In this document: positions 56,195 through 64,000 of the stretch, piece by piece
Numbering within the stretch: position 1 is the stretch's first letter
How the letters are laid out: every line of letters begins with the position of its first letter
NCBI GenBank assembly: GCA_945881865.1
Contig: CAMCVK010000009.1
Span: forward strand, 62,001 to 126,000
Direction of reading: 5' to 3'
From: Fimbriimonas ginsengisoli Gsoil 348
GTDB lineage: Bacteria > Armatimonadota > Fimbriimonadia > Fimbriimonadales > Fimbriimonadaceae
DNA: 64,000 bases
Made by a program: the position numbers and the translations under genes
The notes under the pieces: model-generated
Database searches by the model: none
What the model saw: only the letters and a program-made list of their open reading frames with translations
What the model was told of the DNA's origin: nothing

Positions 56195-56271
56195 GCCTCG
56201 GTCGTCTAGCGGTCCAGGACGCCGCCCTTTCACGGCGGAGATCGCGGGTTCGATTCCCGTCCGGGGTACCA
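56195..56271 (+). tRNA. tRNA-Glu (UUC)
   Basis: A 77-nt cloverleaf including an encoded 3' CCA. Acceptor stem GCCTCGG pairs with CCGGGGT (with G1.U72 and U4.G69); the anticodon stem CCGCC/GGCGG encloses loop CTTTCAC with anticodon TTC (56229-56231); the T arm holds GGTTCGATT. The tRNA is the left flank of the putative accessory cluster. Confidence 0.93.
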
Positions 56272-56371
56272 AGTTTTGACGGCCGCGATTTTGTCGCGGC
56301 GCGAGACGGTAGCGGCTTGGGCTTGTTCCAAAATTAAAAGATCTGCGCTATTCTCGGTCGATGGAGGCTTT

Positions 56372-57397
56372 ATGTTGCGGATGACCTACCCAGGGTTTGT
56401 GTTTCGCGTGCTTACGAAAGAGGGCTACGACCACACAAGATTGCTTGCGAACACCGGATTGTCGGTGGAGGTCTTCTCCGATCCGAAATTCATGACCGGC
56501 TTTCCGCCTCTTCGTCATTTCTTTCTGAACGCCATCGAACAGACCGGCGAACCGCATCTCGGAATCCGGCTTGGCCAGCAGTTCGAAGCCAGCTTTATCG
56601 GGCTGCCAGCATACACCGCCATGAACGCAGCGACTTTCAAGGACGCCCTGGCGGTCTTGAGCCGCTTTTTCTTCCTGGCATTCCCGGCGATTGAGTTTGC
56701 GTCCCCCGACAATGACGCCGAGGTCCAACCTGGCGAATTCGCGATAAGGTTGCGGCCGAACCTGCCGCTGGGAGACATCTCGTATTTTGCATCCATCAGC
56801 GCGCTCGTGGGATGCGAGGGGCTGTGCAAGACGATACTGCGTACCTCCAAAGCGGGTTTACGCGGCGAGATGTGTATTAGCAAGCCCGAAGGATGGTCAC
56901 TGGTTGAAGGGCAAATCGGCTTTCCCATCCGCTTCGAAGCCCCTGAGATTAGGATAATCCTTGCAGAAGAACTGTTGACCAGCGTACTGCCAGGAGCAGA
57001 TCCACTCAATCATCCTCGTCTGCTAGCGCTTTGCGAAAAGGTTGCAGAGAGAGCACCGGTCGAGACTTCACCGGTTGTCAAGGTCTCGTCATTCTTACAA
57101 AAGGGCCAAAACCTCGCCTTGTCGGTCTCGCAAGTTGCGGCAGCGCTTGGTTTTTCCGAACGGAGCCTGCGCCGACACCTCGAGCAGGAGGGCACAACCT
57201 TCCGACAGCTGACGAACGAGATTCGCGAACGGAGGGCCCGTGATTTGCTTGCCAACACCGACACTCCGATCCAGATCATCTCACACGACTTGGGGTTCGA
57301 CACCCACTCGAACTTCGCGAGGAGTTTCAAGCAGTGGACAGGCACGTCTCCCTCGGCCTTTCGCCTAGCACGCAATAAGCCGGACGTTCCTGGTTAA
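56372..57397 (+). CDS. AraC-family transcriptional regulator
   Basis: A 341-residue regulator. The N-terminal region (TYPGFVFRVLTKEGYDHTRLLANTGLSVE, then the FMTGFPPLRHFFLNA and GIRLGQQFEASFIGLPAYTAMNAATFKDAL segments) matches the Arabinose_bd-type N-terminal domain of OruR/ArgR-like AraC regulators. The C-terminal HTH (about 250-335) has LSVSQVAAALGFSERSLRRHLEQEGTTFRQL and the second helix pair QIISHDLGFDTHSNFARSFKQWTGTSPSAFR. ATG at 56372 follows GGAGG. It is the likely regulator of the sulfatase cluster. Confidence 0.87.
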   Translation: MLRMTYPGFVFRVLTKEGYDHTRLLANTGLSVEVFSDPKFMTGFPPLRHFFLNAIEQTGEPHLGIRLGQQFEASFIGLPAYTAMNAATFKDALAVLSRFFFLAFPAIEFASPDNDAEVQPGEFAIRLRPNLPLGDISYFASISALVGCEGLCKTILRTSKAGLRGEMCISKPEGWSLVEGQIGFPIRFEAPEIRIILAEELLTSVLPGADPLNHPRLLALCEKVAERAPVETSPVVKVSSFLQKGQNLALSVSQVAAALGFSERSLRRHLEQEGTTFRQLTNEIRERRARDLLANTDTPIQIISHDLGFDTHSNFARSFKQWTGTSPSAFRLARNKPDVPG

Positions 57398-57527
57398 AAC
57401 TGAATAGCCTTTGGCCGAATTGGAGCCTCTTAAGGCGCCCACCTCCCCGCATACTTAACTCTAACTTACGGGAAGTGACCGTGGTAGCAGACGGACAGAT
57501 CTAGCTGCGGTTCTAAGGTGGCAAGCC

Positions 57528-58394
57528 ATGAAGATGAATTATCTCCTATTCGTACATTTAGTTCCGAACCAGCGTGTGTTCGTTGACGTATTCCGCGCGA
57601 GCCTTTTCGCACTTAGTTCTATCATAAGTGTGGCTACTGTTAATGCACAAGACGGCAGTAATGCTGTGGGCAATCCGAAGGTGCAACAGGAACGCGAAAC
57701 CGACTTGAAAGCCGCGCAGGATGCATTGTCCAAAAAATGGGTCGTAGACATTACGCCCTACGTTTGGGCCACAGGTATAAGCGGCTCCCTTCAGCCCTTT
57801 GCGGGGAGGCGGACCATCAAGTTCGATGAGTCGTTTACGGACGTACTTGAAGACCTGAACAGCGCTTTCTTTCTGGCCGGATACGCTCGGAAAGGCCGCC
57901 TCGTTGTCGCCGGCGACTTTAGTTTCGTGGATCTATCTGACGAAGGCGTCGTCCCTCCAAACGTTAAGGCGCGCGGCAGCTTGCGGCAAGCTTCGTTGAC
58001 CTTTGCCGTCGGATACCAGGCCGTCGCAAAGCAAAGAATGATTCTAGACGTGCTCGTAGGGTTCCGGTCTTGGCTTCTCAAGCCTGGCGTGGAAGCCGAG
58101 GCAGGCGGAATCGATAAATCCAGTGAGAAGTCATTTACGGACATTGTACTTGCTACCCGCCGCAACTTCCGCATTTCGGATGACTGGTCGTTCCTTCTGT
58201 ATGGAGACGTCGGGATTTTCCGAGTCGGATCTCATGCAACCAGCCAAATTGTCGGAACGTTCAGCTACCGTGCGAGCCGTGACTTCTTCCTTTCCATGGG
58301 GTATCGCGAGTTATCGGTGGACTACCGCAAAAACGGTAGTCGAGTTGACGCACGACTTTCGGGGCCGGTCTTCGGAGCGACGTGGCGGTTTTGA
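57528..58394 (+). CDS. Outer-membrane beta-barrel protein of the sulfatase cluster
   Basis: A 288-residue protein. A long N-terminal region (residues 1-40; hydrophobic core VFRASLFALSSIISVATVNAQ) is a signal peptide. The mature part has beta-hairpins and glycine/aromatic turns: VVDITPYVWATGISGSL, FFLAGYARKGRLVVAGDFSFVDL, ASLTFAVGYQAV, MILDVLVGFRSWLL, FLLYGDVGIFRVG, and ends in ATWRF, a C-terminal Phe. It may be a porin or a surface protein that works with the sulfatase 12 bp downstream. No family named with certainty. Confidence 0.72.
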   Translation: MKMNYLLFVHLVPNQRVFVDVFRASLFALSSIISVATVNAQDGSNAVGNPKVQQERETDLKAAQDALSKKWVVDITPYVWATGISGSLQPFAGRRTIKFDESFTDVLEDLNSAFFLAGYARKGRLVVAGDFSFVDLSDEGVVPPNVKARGSLRQASLTFAVGYQAVAKQRMILDVLVGFRSWLLKPGVEAEAGGIDKSSEKSFTDIVLATRRNFRISDDWSFLLYGDVGIFRVGSHATSQIVGTFSYRASRDFFLSMGYRELSVDYRKNGSRVDARLSGPVFGATWRF

Positions 58395-58405
58395 GGCGGC
58401 ACATC

Positions 58406-60253
58406 ATGAACTTGAATGATCTCACAAGCGCATTTAGAGTTCCAGTCCGACAAGGGCAGGTGGCGATGGCCCGAGCTGGCCTATCCGCAATTGTCTTGGG
58501 CTTTGCCGTGGGCGCCCTTGCCCAGTCCCCAGAAACAAAACCCAACATCCTAGTTGTGCTCTTCGACGATGTCGGCTTCATGGATTTCGGTGCTTATGGC
58601 AGCGATTCGCGGACTCCCAACATCGATGCCGTGGCAAAAAAGGGGGTTATGCTTTCGCGCTTCCATTCATCGCCATTTTGCGGGCCGAGTCGCGCGATGC
58701 TTCTGACGGGAATGGACAACCACCAGGTCGGAATGGGGACGCTGGTGGAAACTGTGACTGCGGAAATGCGAAGCAGCCCCGGCTATTCCATGCTCTGGCG
58801 CGAGAATCAGAAGACTGTTGCCAGCCTGCTGTCCACGGCGGGCTATCAAACCTACGTGACCGGCAAGTGGGGCATTGGCGAGGCGGGCGCGAACCTTCCG
58901 AATCGATTCGGATTCGACCGGTCCTACGTGATGGATGCGACCGGCGGCAGTAATTACAACGCCAAGCCGTACCTGCCGGGATACCACGATGTGGACTGGT
59001 TCGAAGATGGGAAGTCGATTAAACTGCCTGCCGACTATTATTCCTCTCGAAATCTCATCGACAAAATGATCGACTACATCGATGGGGGCAAACCGGACAA
59101 GCCGTTCTTCGGATTCCTTTCTCTACAGGCCGTGCACATCCCGGTACAGGCTCCGAAACCCTACATTGACTCCTACAACGGTGTTTTCGACGCTGGATGG
59201 GATGAAATGCGCAAGACTCGGCTTCAACGGGCAATCAAGCTCGGGCTGGTCCCGCCTACCACAAAGCTGCCGCCGGCACCCAAAACTCATCGCGCCTGGG
59301 ACGGTCTGACGCCTGATGAAAAGGCAGTTTCGGCTCGCGAGATGCAGGTCAATGCTGGAATGATGACAGCGGCCGACGAACATGTCGGGCGCTTGTTGAA
59401 ACACCTAGAAGCCGCTGGAAAGCTCAAGAACACCATCGTCATCATCACGTCCGACAACGGCGCAGAAGCGGCCGTCACCAAGTTCCAAGGTTTCCAGAAA
59501 GTGCTCGTCCGCGGGATCGAGTCGATCGAAGGTTTTGACACATCACCGGAGAACATGGGTCAGGTTAACAGCCTAACTGCCATCGGGCCGGAGTGGGCTT
59601 CGGTTTCATCCGCGCCCTTCAACCTTTACAAGTTCTACGGCAGCGAAGGGGGCTTGCGAGTGCCTTTGATCGCAGCTGGCCCCGGGATCAGGGCATCTGG
59701 CATCCTGGATGCGCCTATCCATGTGGCGGATCTGGTACCGACGATCTTGGATTCAGCGAACGTGCCCTATGAGGCATCCGCCTTCTATGGTCGCAGCGCC
59801 TTTCCGGTACTGGCCAAGAAGTCCGACCGCAGCAGGGCCGAGAACGAGGGGTTCGGATTTGAGGTGAGCGGCAACGCCGCCCTATATCGCGGGCAGTGGA
59901 AGATAACGCGCCTATCACCGCCTCTGGGAGACAGAAAATGGAGACTCTATGACCTCTCGACGGATCCGGGCGAGACCACAGACGTGTCCGCTGCGAACCC
60001 GAAGCTTTTTGAAAGCATGGTGGCTGAGTACAAGTCGTATTCCGAAAAAGTCGGCGTAATCGAGCTTGGACCAAATGACTCCGCTTTCAAGCAACTCTTC
60101 AAAAATGTTGCGACGAAGGCATTGCATAAATACTGGCCGTACGTGGTCGGAGTAGTCGTCGCAATCGCTGCAGTTCTGTATTTTTCGTTTCGGACAATCC
60201 GGGGCTTTGTGCGGCGACGACGTGCAAAGGCTAAGAATGGCCAGAGGATCTAA
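58406..60253 (+). CDS. Cys-type arylsulfatase with C-terminal membrane anchor
   Basis: A 615-residue sulfatase. DDVGFMDFGAYGS binds the metal; the active-site C-x-P-S-R motif is FCGPSRAMLLTGM with Cys92 (from the 58406 start), which must be converted to formylglycine; TGKWGIGE, FGFLSLQAVHIPVQ and SDNGAE follow. The signal peptide is clear at MARAGLSAIVLGFAVGALAQ, so an ATG at 58466 is an equally good start. The C-terminus (YWPYVVGVVVAIAAVLYF then RTIRGFVRRRR) is a membrane anchor with cytoplasmic basic tail, leaving the enzyme in the periplasm. Substrate unknown. Confidence 0.92.
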   Translation: MNLNDLTSAFRVPVRQGQVAMARAGLSAIVLGFAVGALAQSPETKPNILVVLFDDVGFMDFGAYGSDSRTPNIDAVAKKGVMLSRFHSSPFCGPSRAMLLTGMDNHQVGMGTLVETVTAEMRSSPGYSMLWRENQKTVASLLSTAGYQTYVTGKWGIGEAGANLPNRFGFDRSYVMDATGGSNYNAKPYLPGYHDVDWFEDGKSIKLPADYYSSRNLIDKMIDYIDGGKPDKPFFGFLSLQAVHIPVQAPKPYIDSYNGVFDAGWDEMRKTRLQRAIKLGLVPPTTKLPPAPKTHRAWDGLTPDEKAVSAREMQVNAGMMTAADEHVGRLLKHLEAAGKLKNTIVIITSDNGAEAAVTKFQGFQKVLVRGIESIEGFDTSPENMGQVNSLTAIGPEWASVSSAPFNLYKFYGSEGGLRVPLIAAGPGIRASGILDAPIHVADLVPTILDSANVPYEASAFYGRSAFPVLAKKSDRSRAENEGFGFEVSGNAALYRGQWKITRLSPPLGDRKWRLYDLSTDPGETTDVSAANPKLFESMVAEYKSYSEKVGVIELGPNDSAFKQLFKNVATKALHKYWPYVVGVVVAIAAVLYFSFRTIRGFVRRRRAKAKNGQRI

Positions 60254-60284
60254 TCGATAACCCTTAAGGAGCAAACCAAACACT

Positions 60285-61118
60285 ATGCACTGGAGTCTTT
60301 ACCTTCTCGGCGGACTTATAATTCTGCTTGCCATCATCACGTACTTCCTTCGCCAAATCCTGGCAGCGATGGGGTTGCATCGTCACTACAAAATTCCAGA
60401 CTTCGATCTGAAAGGGCTTCGCGCGCTGGTCGTGTGCACAAACCACAATCGACTTGATCCCCGCAATAAGGATACCGGCGCCTTTGGCTCGGAGTTTACG
60501 GTTCCCTACTACGCTTTTATCAACGCGGGCATGGACGTTGACATGGCCTCACCTAAAGGTGGGGAAATCCCGGTCCAGCCTCCGAGTTGGTCGTGGCCGC
60601 TCTCCTGCGCGGACGATAAACGCTTCATGGCGGACAAAGACGCCATGGCCAAGCTGAAGAACTCCAAGAAGATTAGCGATATCAACCCGGAAGATTACGA
60701 TGTGATCTTCATGGCGGGTGGTTGGGGCGCGGCCTACGACCTGATGCAAAGCGAGGAGCTCGCCGCTCTCGTCACGCGCGCCAATGCCCTCGGTAAGATC
60801 CTCGGGTCGGTCTGTCACGGCGCTTTGGGCCTCTGCAGCGCAAAGGGTATCGATGGCGAGTCTTTGGTCAAGGGCCGCCGTGTAACAGGTGTTACAAACG
60901 ATCAGATCAATACCTTCGGCATTGCAGTAACTCCTAAGCATCCTGAGGAAGAATTAAGGAAAGCCGGGGCGATTTACGAGTGCCAACACGGAAGGCTGGA
61001 CCCGTTTATGACCCATACCTCGATTGACGGCAACCTGATCACCGGCCAGAACCAGAACAGCGGTTACGAGACTGCCCACCGAATCTTGGAGAAAATTGCC
61101 ACGCAGAGGAGCGTTTAG
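60285..61118 (+). CDS. Membrane-anchored DJ-1/PfpI family protein
   Basis: A 277-residue protein. An N-terminal helix (LYLLGGLIILLAIITYFL) is followed by a class I glutamine amidotransferase-like domain: LRALVVCTNHNRLDP, FINAGMDVDMASPKGGEIPVQ, DYDVIFMAGGWGAAYDL and the nucleophile elbow GSVCHGALGL with Cys177 and His178. Hsp31-type chaperone/glyoxalase relatives share this. AAGGAG precedes the ATG. It lies between the sulfatase and the FGE; its membrane anchor and placement suggest a linked envelope role. The orientation of the domain is not settled. Confidence 0.82.
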   Translation: MHWSLYLLGGLIILLAIITYFLRQILAAMGLHRHYKIPDFDLKGLRALVVCTNHNRLDPRNKDTGAFGSEFTVPYYAFINAGMDVDMASPKGGEIPVQPPSWSWPLSCADDKRFMADKDAMAKLKNSKKISDINPEDYDVIFMAGGWGAAYDLMQSEELAALVTRANALGKILGSVCHGALGLCSAKGIDGESLVKGRRVTGVTNDQINTFGIAVTPKHPEEELRKAGAIYECQHGRLDPFMTHTSIDGNLITGQNQNSGYETAHRILEKIATQRSV

Positions 61119-61152
61119 GCAAGGGTCCCTGGCAGCTCAAGAGCATCCCATC

Positions 61153-61659
61153 ATGCATGTGTCCCCCGCCCTTAACGCCGACTGTAAACCGATCGATCAA
61201 GCTGCAGTCGGCCTGATCTACGGATCCATCTTGGTGCTGAGCGTTCTCATGGCGTTGGAGGAAGCGCAGGCGACACCGCTTCGGCCGGCCATCGTCCTTT
61301 TTGGATCGGTTTTGGCCGTAACTTTGGCGAAGGGTTTTTCTGAGGTACTTGGCCATGCGGTCCAAAGCCACGAGCGGATCCTAACGCGAACGGCCTGGAA
61401 GACGGCGTGGCACCATTCTCACCCGACCCTCACCGTCGCCAACTTGCCCACGCTGTTGCTCCTTTCGACTGGGCTCGGGTGGCTCGATTTCGGGTCGGCC
61501 ATTACGATCTCACAAGTCTTCTGCGTTGTCCTGCTCGCCGTCCTCGGTGCCCGGGTGGGCTGGGCAATTCAGCCCAAGTCTTGGCTCCCTTTGGGAGGAG
61601 CACTCTTCGTCGGCGGCATCGGATCGGCGTTGGCCGCTCTGAAGCATGCGATCCACTAA
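61153..61659 (+). CDS. Hypothetical four-helix membrane protein
   Basis: A 168-residue protein. ATG at 61153 chosen; an ATG-like upstream start at 61096 would overlap the DJ-1 gene. About four hydrophobic segments: AVGLIYGSILVLSVLMALEEA, LRPAIVLFGSVLAVTLAKGF, ANLPTLLLLSTGLGWLDF and VFCVVLLAVLGARVGWAI. The sequence AWHHSHPTLTVANLP between segments 2 and 3 has histidines. No family recognised. It ends 11 bp before the FGE. Confidence 0.65.
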   Translation: MHVSPALNADCKPIDQAAVGLIYGSILVLSVLMALEEAQATPLRPAIVLFGSVLAVTLAKGFSEVLGHAVQSHERILTRTAWKTAWHHSHPTLTVANLPTLLLLSTGLGWLDFGSAITISQVFCVVLLAVLGARVGWAIQPKSWLPLGGALFVGGIGSALAALKHAIH

Positions 61660-61670
61660 AGGAGAACAAA

Positions 61671-62546
61671 TTGACGACCACACGCAACAGTCGACCGCAT
61701 GTGATCATGGGAGCCGTCGCACTCGGAACCGTCGCGGCAGCCGTCTTGACCTCCCAGTTCGGTAGGAGCGGAGCCCAGCTAGGCGCTTTCATCGAAATCC
61801 CCGGCGGCGGGTTTATCCAGGGCTCCGATCCAGTCTACGCCGAAGAGGGTCCGCCCAGAAAGGTCTTCGTCTCCCCGTTTCGCTTGCAAGCCCATGAGGT
61901 CACCAACCGCCAATTCGCGGCCTTCGTGAAGGCCACGGGCTACGTAACTGATGCCGAACGTAAGGGCGGGTCCGCGCAGTTCTGCAAGAGTAACAGGCCT
62001 AATGTCTTGCCCACTTCGTGGACTATCGACCGCAACGTAACTTGGCGGACGCCAAACGGTGTGGGCTCGACACTTGACGGGCGGTCGCTTCATCCAGTGG
62101 TCCATGTCTCGCTGAACGATGCCCGCGCTTATGCGAAGTGGGCTGGGGGGCGGATCCCAAGCGAAGTGGAATGGGAATATGCGGCGACACTCGGTCTCTT
62201 GGACCCTAAGGATCCAGAATCGGGTGCGCGCCGTCCAGACGGCACTTTACGGGCCAACGTCTGGACGGGGATCTTCCCCAGAGTCAACACGCGTCAGGAT
62301 GGCTATGAAGGGACCGGGCCAGTCGGGTCCTTCGAGCCTGGACGGACCGGCGCCTACGACATGATCGGCAACGTCTGGGAATGGACCGAAACGGCCGACG
62401 GCCCCCATTTCACCATCAAAGGTGGATCGTTTCTATGCAGCGAGGACCACTGCCGAAGGTTCCGTCCGGCCGCGCGTCAAAGCATGGAGGTTGACTTTAG
62501 CGCCGCCCATATCGGCTTTCGCATTATCACGGATGCGCGGCAGTGA
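61671..62546 (+). CDS. Formylglycine-generating enzyme (SUMF1-type)
   Basis: A 291-residue oxidase that converts the sulfatase active-site Cys to formylglycine. The catalytic pair Cys256/Cys261 is in GSFLCSEDHCRRFRPAARQ, the C-x4-C spacing of human SUMF1 and bacterial FGEs. IEIPGGGFIQGS, PSEVEWEYAA, GNVWEWTET and HIGFR are conserved. The N-terminus (MTTTRNSRPHVIMGAVALGTVAAAVL) may be a signal peptide or anchor, which is unusual. Start TTG at 61671 behind AAAGGAGA. It matures the sulfatase three genes upstream. Confidence 0.9.
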   Translation: MTTTRNSRPHVIMGAVALGTVAAAVLTSQFGRSGAQLGAFIEIPGGGFIQGSDPVYAEEGPPRKVFVSPFRLQAHEVTNRQFAAFVKATGYVTDAERKGGSAQFCKSNRPNVLPTSWTIDRNVTWRTPNGVGSTLDGRSLHPVVHVSLNDARAYAKWAGGRIPSEVEWEYAATLGLLDPKDPESGARRPDGTLRANVWTGIFPRVNTRQDGYEGTGPVGSFEPGRTGAYDMIGNVWEWTETADGPHFTIKGGSFLCSEDHCRRFRPAARQSMEVDFSAAHIGFRIITDARQ

Positions 62547-62713
62547 ACTGCCGCCTCGTAATGACTAGTCTAGTAAGATTTGACGGGGCATAGAACAATA
62601 GGGAAATTACTTGAATAACTGATGGTGTGGTGGGTAGAATTCGCGCACAGTTACTCGCATAAAATAATATACAGCTATATCGCGTAAGTTATATAAACAC
62701 TTGTAGGTACAAC

Positions 62714-63655
62714 ATGCAAATACAAATTCTGACGTCAGCCATCCTTGGAGTGATTCTCTTAGGATGCGGAAAAGTTCAACAGATCCAATCAATACGCAAT
62801 TACGATCCGGTGCTTTCCAGTGCCGCCCAGGAAGACACCACCGTTACGACGATTCAATCAAAGCGCGATAAGCATGGACGGCAAGTAGGACTTATTTCCG
62901 CGTTTTTCGGATTAGATGATGCTTTAGCTAGAGCAGCGGATCAGGGGGTCTGGCCAGGTGCTGGCGGTAAAGATGGCATGCCCGTCATTTTCTCCCATGA
63001 GATCGACTACAAGACGATGCAGGCCGGAGATTTTCGAGTGACAACGGCGTCAGGGAAAGTTGGCGAAATTTTGGCCGTGACACTGGCTCCGGCAGATGAT
63101 AAAGGAGAACACAGAACCGTTTTGTTCGCCGGGCGCTACGGCAGCATTGATGACCAGCCCGCGAAGGTGGAAATCGTAGGCAACCTTCTTTCCATTGACG
63201 GAACACTAAACTTTAAAGGGGAAAGTATAGTTGTCACACCTCTCGAAGAGGGCGCAACTATGGTTTGGGCTGAAACTGTTCCCGAAGCTGAATGGGAGAT
63301 CGGGAAGAAGGCGACTCCATTGCCTTGGGGCGGAGGCAGTGGCGCTGCCGAAGGCACGAAGACGTTGGTGAGGGTGACGTGGAGCGGAGGCGTTACCAGA
63401 CCGGTTGGTGGAGAAGTTCAGGACGAAGAGCGACTACTTTATAAGGTCACCGTTCTGCTTGCGAATGGCAGCAAACAGATCGTCACCCCATTTGCGATTG
63501 GTGACTTAGGGGATGGGGACAACAATCATGAGCTTTGCCTTGACGTGGTCGGAACACCGCAATCGGTCTATTTCCCTAAAGCCAGACTGGTAGATCCTAG
63601 GAAGGACTTGAACCCGGAGACGACGATAGCGATCGTAAAGTCGCCAGCTCGGTGA
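62714..63655 (+). CDS. Hypothetical lipoprotein
   Basis: A 313-residue protein with lipobox ILLGC at residue about 18 (MQIQILTSAILGVILLGCGK). The mature part is acidic and beta-rich, with HEIDYKTMQAGDFRVTTASGKVGEI, VTLAPADDKGEHRTVLFAGRYGSI and a final DLNPETTIAIVKS. No catalytic motif recognised. Codon use and an A+T-rich upstream gap (62547-62713; many ATA/TTA) set it apart from the rest of the window. It may belong to a different acquired segment than the sulfatase operon. Confidence 0.65.
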   Translation: MQIQILTSAILGVILLGCGKVQQIQSIRNYDPVLSSAAQEDTTVTTIQSKRDKHGRQVGLISAFFGLDDALARAADQGVWPGAGGKDGMPVIFSHEIDYKTMQAGDFRVTTASGKVGEILAVTLAPADDKGEHRTVLFAGRYGSIDDQPAKVEIVGNLLSIDGTLNFKGESIVVTPLEEGATMVWAETVPEAEWEIGKKATPLPWGGGSGAAEGTKTLVRVTWSGGVTRPVGGEVQDEERLLYKVTVLLANGSKQIVTPFAIGDLGDGDNNHELCLDVVGTPQSVYFPKARLVDPRKDLNPETTIAIVKSPAR

Positions 63656-64000
63656 AGACTTGCGAAGGAGTGAAGTTCGTTTGATTGGCGGTGGTTTATG
63701 CCGGTAGCTAACGCAGTTTTGTGAAGCAGCTGCGTTCAGGGTCGTCAAATTTCTGGTTTTCATGGGCGGGTCGGCTAGAGTGCGGGAAGAGAAGTTCCTT
63801 AATCGCCCAGCACGTTCGCCACTAAATCCTGCACACCAATCGGTGGGCAAGATTTAGTGGTTTCTGGGGCTTGTTAGCAGCTTGAGGCCAGCGCTCTGCC
63901 CAACAGAGCGAGGGAAACGCACGAAAGGAGTCTCGGCCGTCTGGGATACCAATTGTTAGTCCGATACCTGATCGGGGAAGGAATGTGCAGTAAGATAGTC
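63656..64000. other. Intergenic region at the window edge without a recognisable gene
   Basis: No open frame with family features was found in these 345 bases. They contain a large imperfect palindrome (63819-63860) and a small perfect hairpin CGCTCTG/CAGAGCG (63892-63910, loop CCCAA). The rest is featureless. The right boundary of the putative island may lie here or beyond. Confidence 0.5.
63819..63860. repeat. 42-bp imperfect palindrome
   Basis: The outer arms CCACTAAATC and GATTTAGTGG pair over 10 bp, and the inner parts TGCACACC/GGTGGGCA pair except for one mismatch, around an AATC loop. In all, 17 of 19 positions pair. As RNA it is a strong hairpin with a TTTCT just after it on the plus strand, so a terminator for the lipoprotein gene is possible; as DNA it could be a recombination or protein-binding site. 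Confidence 0.55.

Follow-up and report, generated by a model that had tools for sequence, protein, structure and literature searches.

Why should a bacterium encode, between a sulfatase and the enzyme that activates it, a membrane-anchored protein of the DJ-1/PfpI superfamily? The question is raised by a 64,000-nucleotide stretch of Fimbriimonas ginsengisoli Gsoil 348 (Armatimonadota; assembly GCA_945881865.1, contig CAMCVK010000009.1, positions 62,001 to 126,000 of the forward strand; the whole stretch is called the window, and coordinates count from its first letter). Directly 3′ of a tRNA-Glu(UUC) gene it carries seven genes, all on the + strand, for an AraC-type regulator, an outer-membrane beta-barrel-like protein (OMP), a Cys-type sulfatase, the DJ-1 protein, a 168-residue membrane protein (TM168), a formylglycine-generating enzyme (FGE) and a lipoprotein. 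A preliminary description, made from the letters alone, had listed this one-directional set, and all of its genes are indeed present in that order. The seven genes are one linked unit and its horizontal acquisition is well supported. From its sequence the unit may be a self-contained cell-envelope (periplasmic) module for organosulfate hydrolysis in which DJ-1 would process the product of the sulfatase, a reading to which we give an even chance.

The DJ-1 protein is a companion of the sulfatase

The DJ-1 gene (60285..61118, +; PF01965, 61.8 bits) encodes an N-terminal membrane helix and an Hsp31-like domain. Eighty loci holding its closest relatives were compared, picked by DJ-1 similarity and not by the presence of sulfatases. 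A sulfatase is the immediate same-strand neighbour of DJ-1 in 37 of these, and in 29 (Acidimicrobiia and similar actinobacterial records) DJ-1 is fused to the C-terminus of the sulfatase, so that 66 of the 80 relatives are fused or directly adjacent to a sulfatase, and 5 more have one within 10 kb. In one fused open reading frame (ORF) Pfam places PF00884 at residues 4–392 and PF01965 at 648–849, and the fusion at L085:8198-10768, like those at the 28 other loci, joins a Cys-type sulfatase with the motif CVPSR to a C-terminal DJ-1 domain. That so many independent genomes share this architecture makes an assembly error unlikely. Fusions were seen only with the sulfatase and none with FGE. The nucleophile motif CHG was found in 87/87 sequences, which makes it probable that the domain is enzymatically active as a member of the Hsp31 branch; the catalytic residues Glu70, Cys177 and His178 are invariant in the alignment and glyoxalase III activity is putative. 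Unfused DJ-1 proteins carry an N-terminal hydrophobic helix (a few helix values come out low because of the position that the script gave to the core; the beginning of the helix is still visible in the printed segments).

As the relatives belong to the Hsp31/glyoxalase III type, DJ-1 might be a glyoxalase for the detoxification of aldehydes in general, present at sulfatase loci only as a passenger, and the GST and DSBA-fold genes of the wider loci, together with the few DJ-1 homologues that have no sulfatase, would fit such a role. We consider it unlikely, because a passenger would hardly be fused to a sulfatase at 29 of 80 loci and lie immediately beside one, on the same strand, at 37 others, in several phyla, and because no sulfatase was found around three soluble plasmid-borne DJ-1 relatives that served as controls (the plasmid search yielded only distant relatives, with less than 60% identity).

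Seven genes form one unit

The regulator gene (56372..57397, +; Arabinose_bd and HTH_18 domains) has a reading frame open from a TTG at 56276, the ATG at 56372 being the start common to its relatives. It is followed by the genes for the 288-residue OMP (57528..58394, +), which has no Pfam family but has homologues in the clusters of relatives, the sulfatase (from ATG at 58406..60253, +), DJ-1, TM168 (61153..61659, +; four to five helices and no known family) and FGE (61671..62546, +, the start being a TTG with AGGAG upstream). Since the gaps from OMP to FGE measure only 11–37 bases, these genes look like one transcription unit. Last comes the lipoprotein gene (62714..63655, +), which encodes an LLGC lipobox and a predicted beta-rich protein of no known family that is kept in clusters of several phyla. 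A gene for a 537-residue protein, starting at about 64024, was considered as a further member and rejected as genus core: it is present in 17/20 genus genomes, and its orthologues in the two related genomes described below (G013 and G014) sit elsewhere than the sulfatase cluster. The right edge of the unit is therefore placed at 63655–64024. About 1.7 kb past the right end of the window, on the opposite strand (L003:11717-14438) and thus near the sulfatase cluster, lie genes that by appearance are sulfur-related, for a metallo-beta-lactamase–rhodanese fusion, a membrane rhodanese and a TauE/SafE-like exporter.

The host genome (G000; 3.2 Mb in 26 contigs) has a single sulfatase and a single strong FGE. 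Of the other genus genomes only G013 and G014 have this sulfatase (about 80% identity), and in all three the same seven genes are clustered, with small rearrangements and differing surroundings: in G014 OMP precedes AraC and the lipoprotein gene is reversed, while in G013 a second DJ-1 gene lies between TM168 and FGE. When the DJ-1 alignment was run against about 85,000 species genomes, the closest matches from beyond the genus belonged to Alphaproteobacteria (76–83% identity). Their loci hold genes for AraC, the sulfatase, DJ-1 and FGE, in most cases with TM168 and frequently with the lipoprotein or OMP, and the order AraC–sulfatase–DJ-1–TM168–FGE recurs in many of them. Carriers that can be cultured include Alteromonas genovensis, Roseivivax and Aquisalinus. 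This clustering in two congeners, and the recurrence of the sulfatase, DJ-1, TM168 and FGE order in Alphaproteobacteria, identify the seven genes as one unit. The preliminary description had held that the unit carries both enzyme and activator and had named anchored DJ-1 and TM168 as possible conserved neighbours; the sulfatase and FGE, and likewise DJ-1 and TM168, proved to be linked in related and unrelated genomes. Scattering of the genes in relatives, which had been set beforehand as evidence against a system, was not what we found, the genes being linked there as well.

The two accessory genes differ in their spread. Every full-length copy of TM168 that was seen adjoins DJ-1 in a sulfatase cluster; an initial genome scan with TM168 alone gave no match, and the protein occurs in 3/291 genomes of the phylum (G000, G013 and G014) and in 1/289 sampled alphaproteobacterial genomes, which is the centre genome itself. 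Members of the lipoprotein family occur in Armatimonadota, Pseudomonadota, Verrucomicrobiota-labelled metagenome-assembled genomes (MAGs), cyanobacteria and Bacteroidota.

The unit was acquired horizontally

In a tree of the sulfatases the trio G000/G013/G014 falls inside a clade (support 100/99) whose members are otherwise all Alphaproteobacteria; a MAG labelled Akkermansia is the sister of the trio (100/100) and the placement of the trio beside Sphingomonadales is weaker (91/88). This nesting, together with absence from the rest of the phylum sample, is what makes horizontal acquisition well supported on sequence grounds. Vertical inheritance of the unit, as a chromosomal operon like any other, is very improbable. 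It would agree with the codon use of the sulfatase, DJ-1 and FGE genes, which is close to that of their surroundings, with a small GC shift and with the lack of a visible integrase, but it has to contend with the strongly supported alphaproteobacterial clade around the trio, with a sulfatase kept at about 80% in only two further genus genomes and a TM168 in only three of the phylum, and with the different surroundings in relatives. The flanking genes of the window, where tested, were not beside the cluster in G013 or G014. A rise in A+T content towards the right, remarked on in the preliminary description, does exist, but it is mild: GC content across the unit is 0.54–0.57 against about 0.59 in the rest of the window, the drop coming mainly from the OMP and lipoprotein genes, whose GC content at third codon positions lies 2.1 and 3.5 standard deviations below the mean (−2.1 and −3.5) in a comparison that covered part of contig C9.

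The tRNA-Glu gene (56195..56271, +), which is outside the unit, was also suspected of marking an integration site. With the LysM/NlpC gene before it, it forms a stable landmark of the genus (17/18 relatives by ARAGORN), behind which the genes vary. The G013 cluster likewise lies downstream of the same tRNA-Glu, after about 12 kb of intervening genes (L137:2576-14029), among which type III restriction-modification-like and SNF2-helicase-like genes were recognized from sequence, no profile search being made; this 12-kb stretch is possibly a defence island. The G014 cluster sits elsewhere, behind accC-nusB-folD-like genes, with no tRNA near it. A near-copy of the tRNA 3′ end (13/15 matches; 63937..63951, +) stands between the lipoprotein gene and the next gene, at the right edge of the unit, and is a weak candidate for an attachment-site remnant; another (14/15) lies 5.7 kb further on, at 69590, and about 0.4 such matches are expected per 90 kb searched. 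Reading by eye, with no integrase profile search, revealed no integrase in any ORF between the tRNA and the end of the contig. Of the proposed island, then, the acquired DNA stands by phylogeny and distribution, and one relative has the unit downstream of the same tRNA-Glu; integration targeted to the tRNA is far less secure, given that no integrase was seen, that the copy at the right edge is degenerate and that the location in G014 is different.

Sulfatase and FGE probably meet in the periplasm

The sulfatase matches PF00884 with 192 bits and carries the C-x-P-S-R signature of type I (formylglycine, FGly) sulfatases as CGPSR (58679..58693, +), which contains its sole Cys. It has a signal segment and a C-terminal membrane anchor. 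Its nearest solved relative is the Pseudomonas aeruginosa arylsulfatase (PAS; PDB 1HDH; 347 bits over the full catalytic domain), so although phosphonate hydrolases have the same fold, hydrolysis of a sulfate ester is predicted. Most linked sulfatases that belong to the anchored group likewise contain a single Cys, namely the FGly Cys, and close with a C-terminal helix that is conserved and precedes Arg-rich tails. No further sulfatase was found in G000 or in the genomes of L042 and L044.

FGE (203.5 bits) passes the PF03781 gathering cut-off over its full length (positions 4–254 of 255), and its segment KGGSFLCSEDHC aligns with KGGSFLCHESYC of a solved FGE. The copper-pair pattern GGS[FY]LC....C appears as GGSFLCSEDHC, in register with solved bacterial FGEs, the predicted copper-binding Cys pair being CSEDHC (62436..62453, +); both this motif and CGPSR, which had been described as intact, are so and align with those of the solved enzymes. 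The C-x4-C arrangement is kept in 30/30 linked FGEs, and conversion of Cys to formylglycine is predicted. All 30 also have an N-terminal hydrophobic segment before the catalytic core, with a hydropathy of at least 1.6 in 26 and of 1.31–1.41 in the other four (Kyte–Doolittle over 19 residues, calculated on in-frame upstream stretches whose start codons are unverified); a membrane segment of this kind was present in 1/10 plasmid-borne control FGEs. Because linked FGEs carry this segment, activation of the sulfatase would probably take place in the periplasm, after export, and we infer that FGE, the sulfatase and DJ-1 would sit together on the periplasmic side of the inner membrane. Prokaryotic FGE has been assigned to the cytosol in a published study (PMC4505483).

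Other arrangements of FGE were met in passing. In Betaproteobacteria an ORF of about 865 residues (L055:9910-12504, also in L052 and L054) lies directly 3′ of DJ-1 and combines a flavin monooxygenase (FMO)-like part, a membrane segment and an FGE domain, and in L043 and L044 DSBA-fold/GST-like proteins are found beside FGE.

What might DJ-1 and TM168 do?

One answer is that DJ-1 and TM168 aid FGE or the sulfatase, as a chaperone for exported but still unfolded sulfatase, in repair of the reactive formylglycine aldehyde or as a redox or copper helper. The strict adjacency and fusion of DJ-1 and sulfatase, the position of TM168 between DJ-1 and FGE and the union of chaperone and aldehyde chemistry in Hsp31-type relatives all lend themselves to this. 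A DJ-1 protein that took part in maturation by FGE would be expected to follow FGE from genome to genome, which is not the pattern seen: the fusions observed are to the sulfatase and in no case to FGE, the genomes of L059 (a Lokiarchaeota MAG) and L060 (a Clostridium MAG) encode a membrane-anchored DJ-1 at about 50% identity but yielded no FGE, and no DJ-1 accompanies ordinary sulfatase/FGE pairs in the short stretches read. TM168, for its part, shows no conserved Cys pair, His/Met cluster or metal-binding pattern across relatives. We therefore regard a maturation module as somewhat unlikely. The supply of copper or redox equivalents to FGE, which the preliminary description had suggested, was dropped on the same evidence: for TM168 it is rejected for want of conserved ligands, and for DJ-1 it sits badly with the two genomes in which no FGE was found and with fusion to sulfatase, not FGE, in Acidimicrobiia. 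A narrower proposal, in which DJ-1/Hsp31, accompanied by TM168 in certain lineages, binds the exported, not yet modified sulfatase or repairs its formylglycine aldehyde while a tethered FGE works in the periplasm, as a bacterial counterpart of the endoplasmic reticulum route, is decidedly doubtful.

A role on the sulfatase itself, the main rival, is thus less likely than processing of its product, which we favour with moderate confidence because DJ-1 is fused to the sulfatase, occurs with no detected FGE in two genomes, was not seen with ordinary pairs in the stretches read and has catabolic neighbours. Genes of a catabolic kind (GST, DSBA-fold, acyl-CoA and SDR-like) turn up in the wider loci, which fits organosulfate catabolism. 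In the product-processing model AraC would switch the module on in response to substrate and the beta-barrel would pass the substrate across the outer membrane. The C-terminally anchored sulfatase, its single Cys turned into formylglycine by the anchored FGE, probably after export, would cleave the sulfate ester on the periplasmic face. There the anchored Hsp31-like DJ-1 would most likely convert the released carbonyl or alcohol product, as its adjacency and fusion to the sulfatase suggest. TM168 and the lipoprotein would be accessory membrane parts, perhaps holding the anchored enzymes together. The lipoprotein model (predicted local distance difference test score, pLDDT, 76) appears beta-rich, with unspecific immunoglobulin-like matches only; the AlphaFold model of TM168 is poor (pLDDT 58) and had no fold match, so no structural claim is made for it.

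Several observations weigh against product processing in a periplasmic module. The role assigned to DJ-1 is drawn from gene context; 9 of the 80 DJ-1 loci have no nearby sulfatase (several are near contig ends); and the clusters of Armatimonadota and many of those in Alphaproteobacteria have no further catabolic gene. The acidimicrobial fusion, at whose start no signal segment is evident, probably stays in the cytosol, and the periplasmic setting is therefore not universal. In the Clostridium MAG, which carries an anchored DJ-1 homologue, sulfatase matches are marginal only, and a sulfatase-independent role of DJ-1 is possible there and in the Lokiarchaeota MAG.

DSBA-fold (2-hydroxychromene-carboxylate-isomerase-like) and GST-like proteins recur beside sulfatase/DJ-1 in Proteobacteria (L027:15110-15751, L033:7393-8058). 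Dehalogenase-like, acyl-CoA and GST genes near sulfatase and DJ-1 in wider loci brought breakdown of chlorosulfolipids or steroid sulfates to mind, an idea set aside as the evidence is too thin.

Relation to known systems

Sulfatase/FGE pairs are already known from aerobic bacteria, and arylsulfatase genes beside FGE occur likewise on plasmids of Paracoccus, Bradyrhizobium, Streptomyces, Cupriavidus and Acinetobacter. Unlike the FGE of the present unit, 9/10 plasmid-borne control FGEs have no N-terminal membrane segment, and the short stretches read around the pairs showed no DJ-1, TM168 or lipoprotein. PAS is cytosolic and soluble, whereas the sulfatase described here carries a membrane helix at its C-terminus as well as a signal segment. 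DJ-1 shares its fold family and Glu-Cys-His catalytic residues with the Hsp31/glyoxalase III branch, from which it is set apart by its N-terminal anchor and its sulfatase context (or, in relatives, fusion). Human SUMF1/FGE acts in the endoplasmic reticulum, to which an exported, oxidizing compartment would be analogous (for the contrast with the cytosol see PMC4505483); here FGE is bacterial, predicted to be membrane-tethered and encoded with one dedicated sulfatase. Acesulfame sulfatase clusters have an FGly sulfatase, and DJ-1 is never mentioned in the text that describes them (PMC11500405). In the open-access literature searched we found no description of a DJ-1/Hsp31-type sulfatase partner, fusions included. 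What is new is the dedicated DJ-1 partner, its fusion to the sulfatase, the membrane-anchored FGE and TM168.

A cassette as compact and self-contained as this could serve aldehyde-tag technology. If the predictions are true, the pairing of an anchored FGE with one co-encoded anchored sulfatase would mean that bacteria are able to activate sulfatases once these have been exported, contrary to the cytosolic view (PMC4505483), and DJ-1 as a constant partner of a sulfatase would offer a direct handle on function in a superfamily that is much studied and poorly understood.

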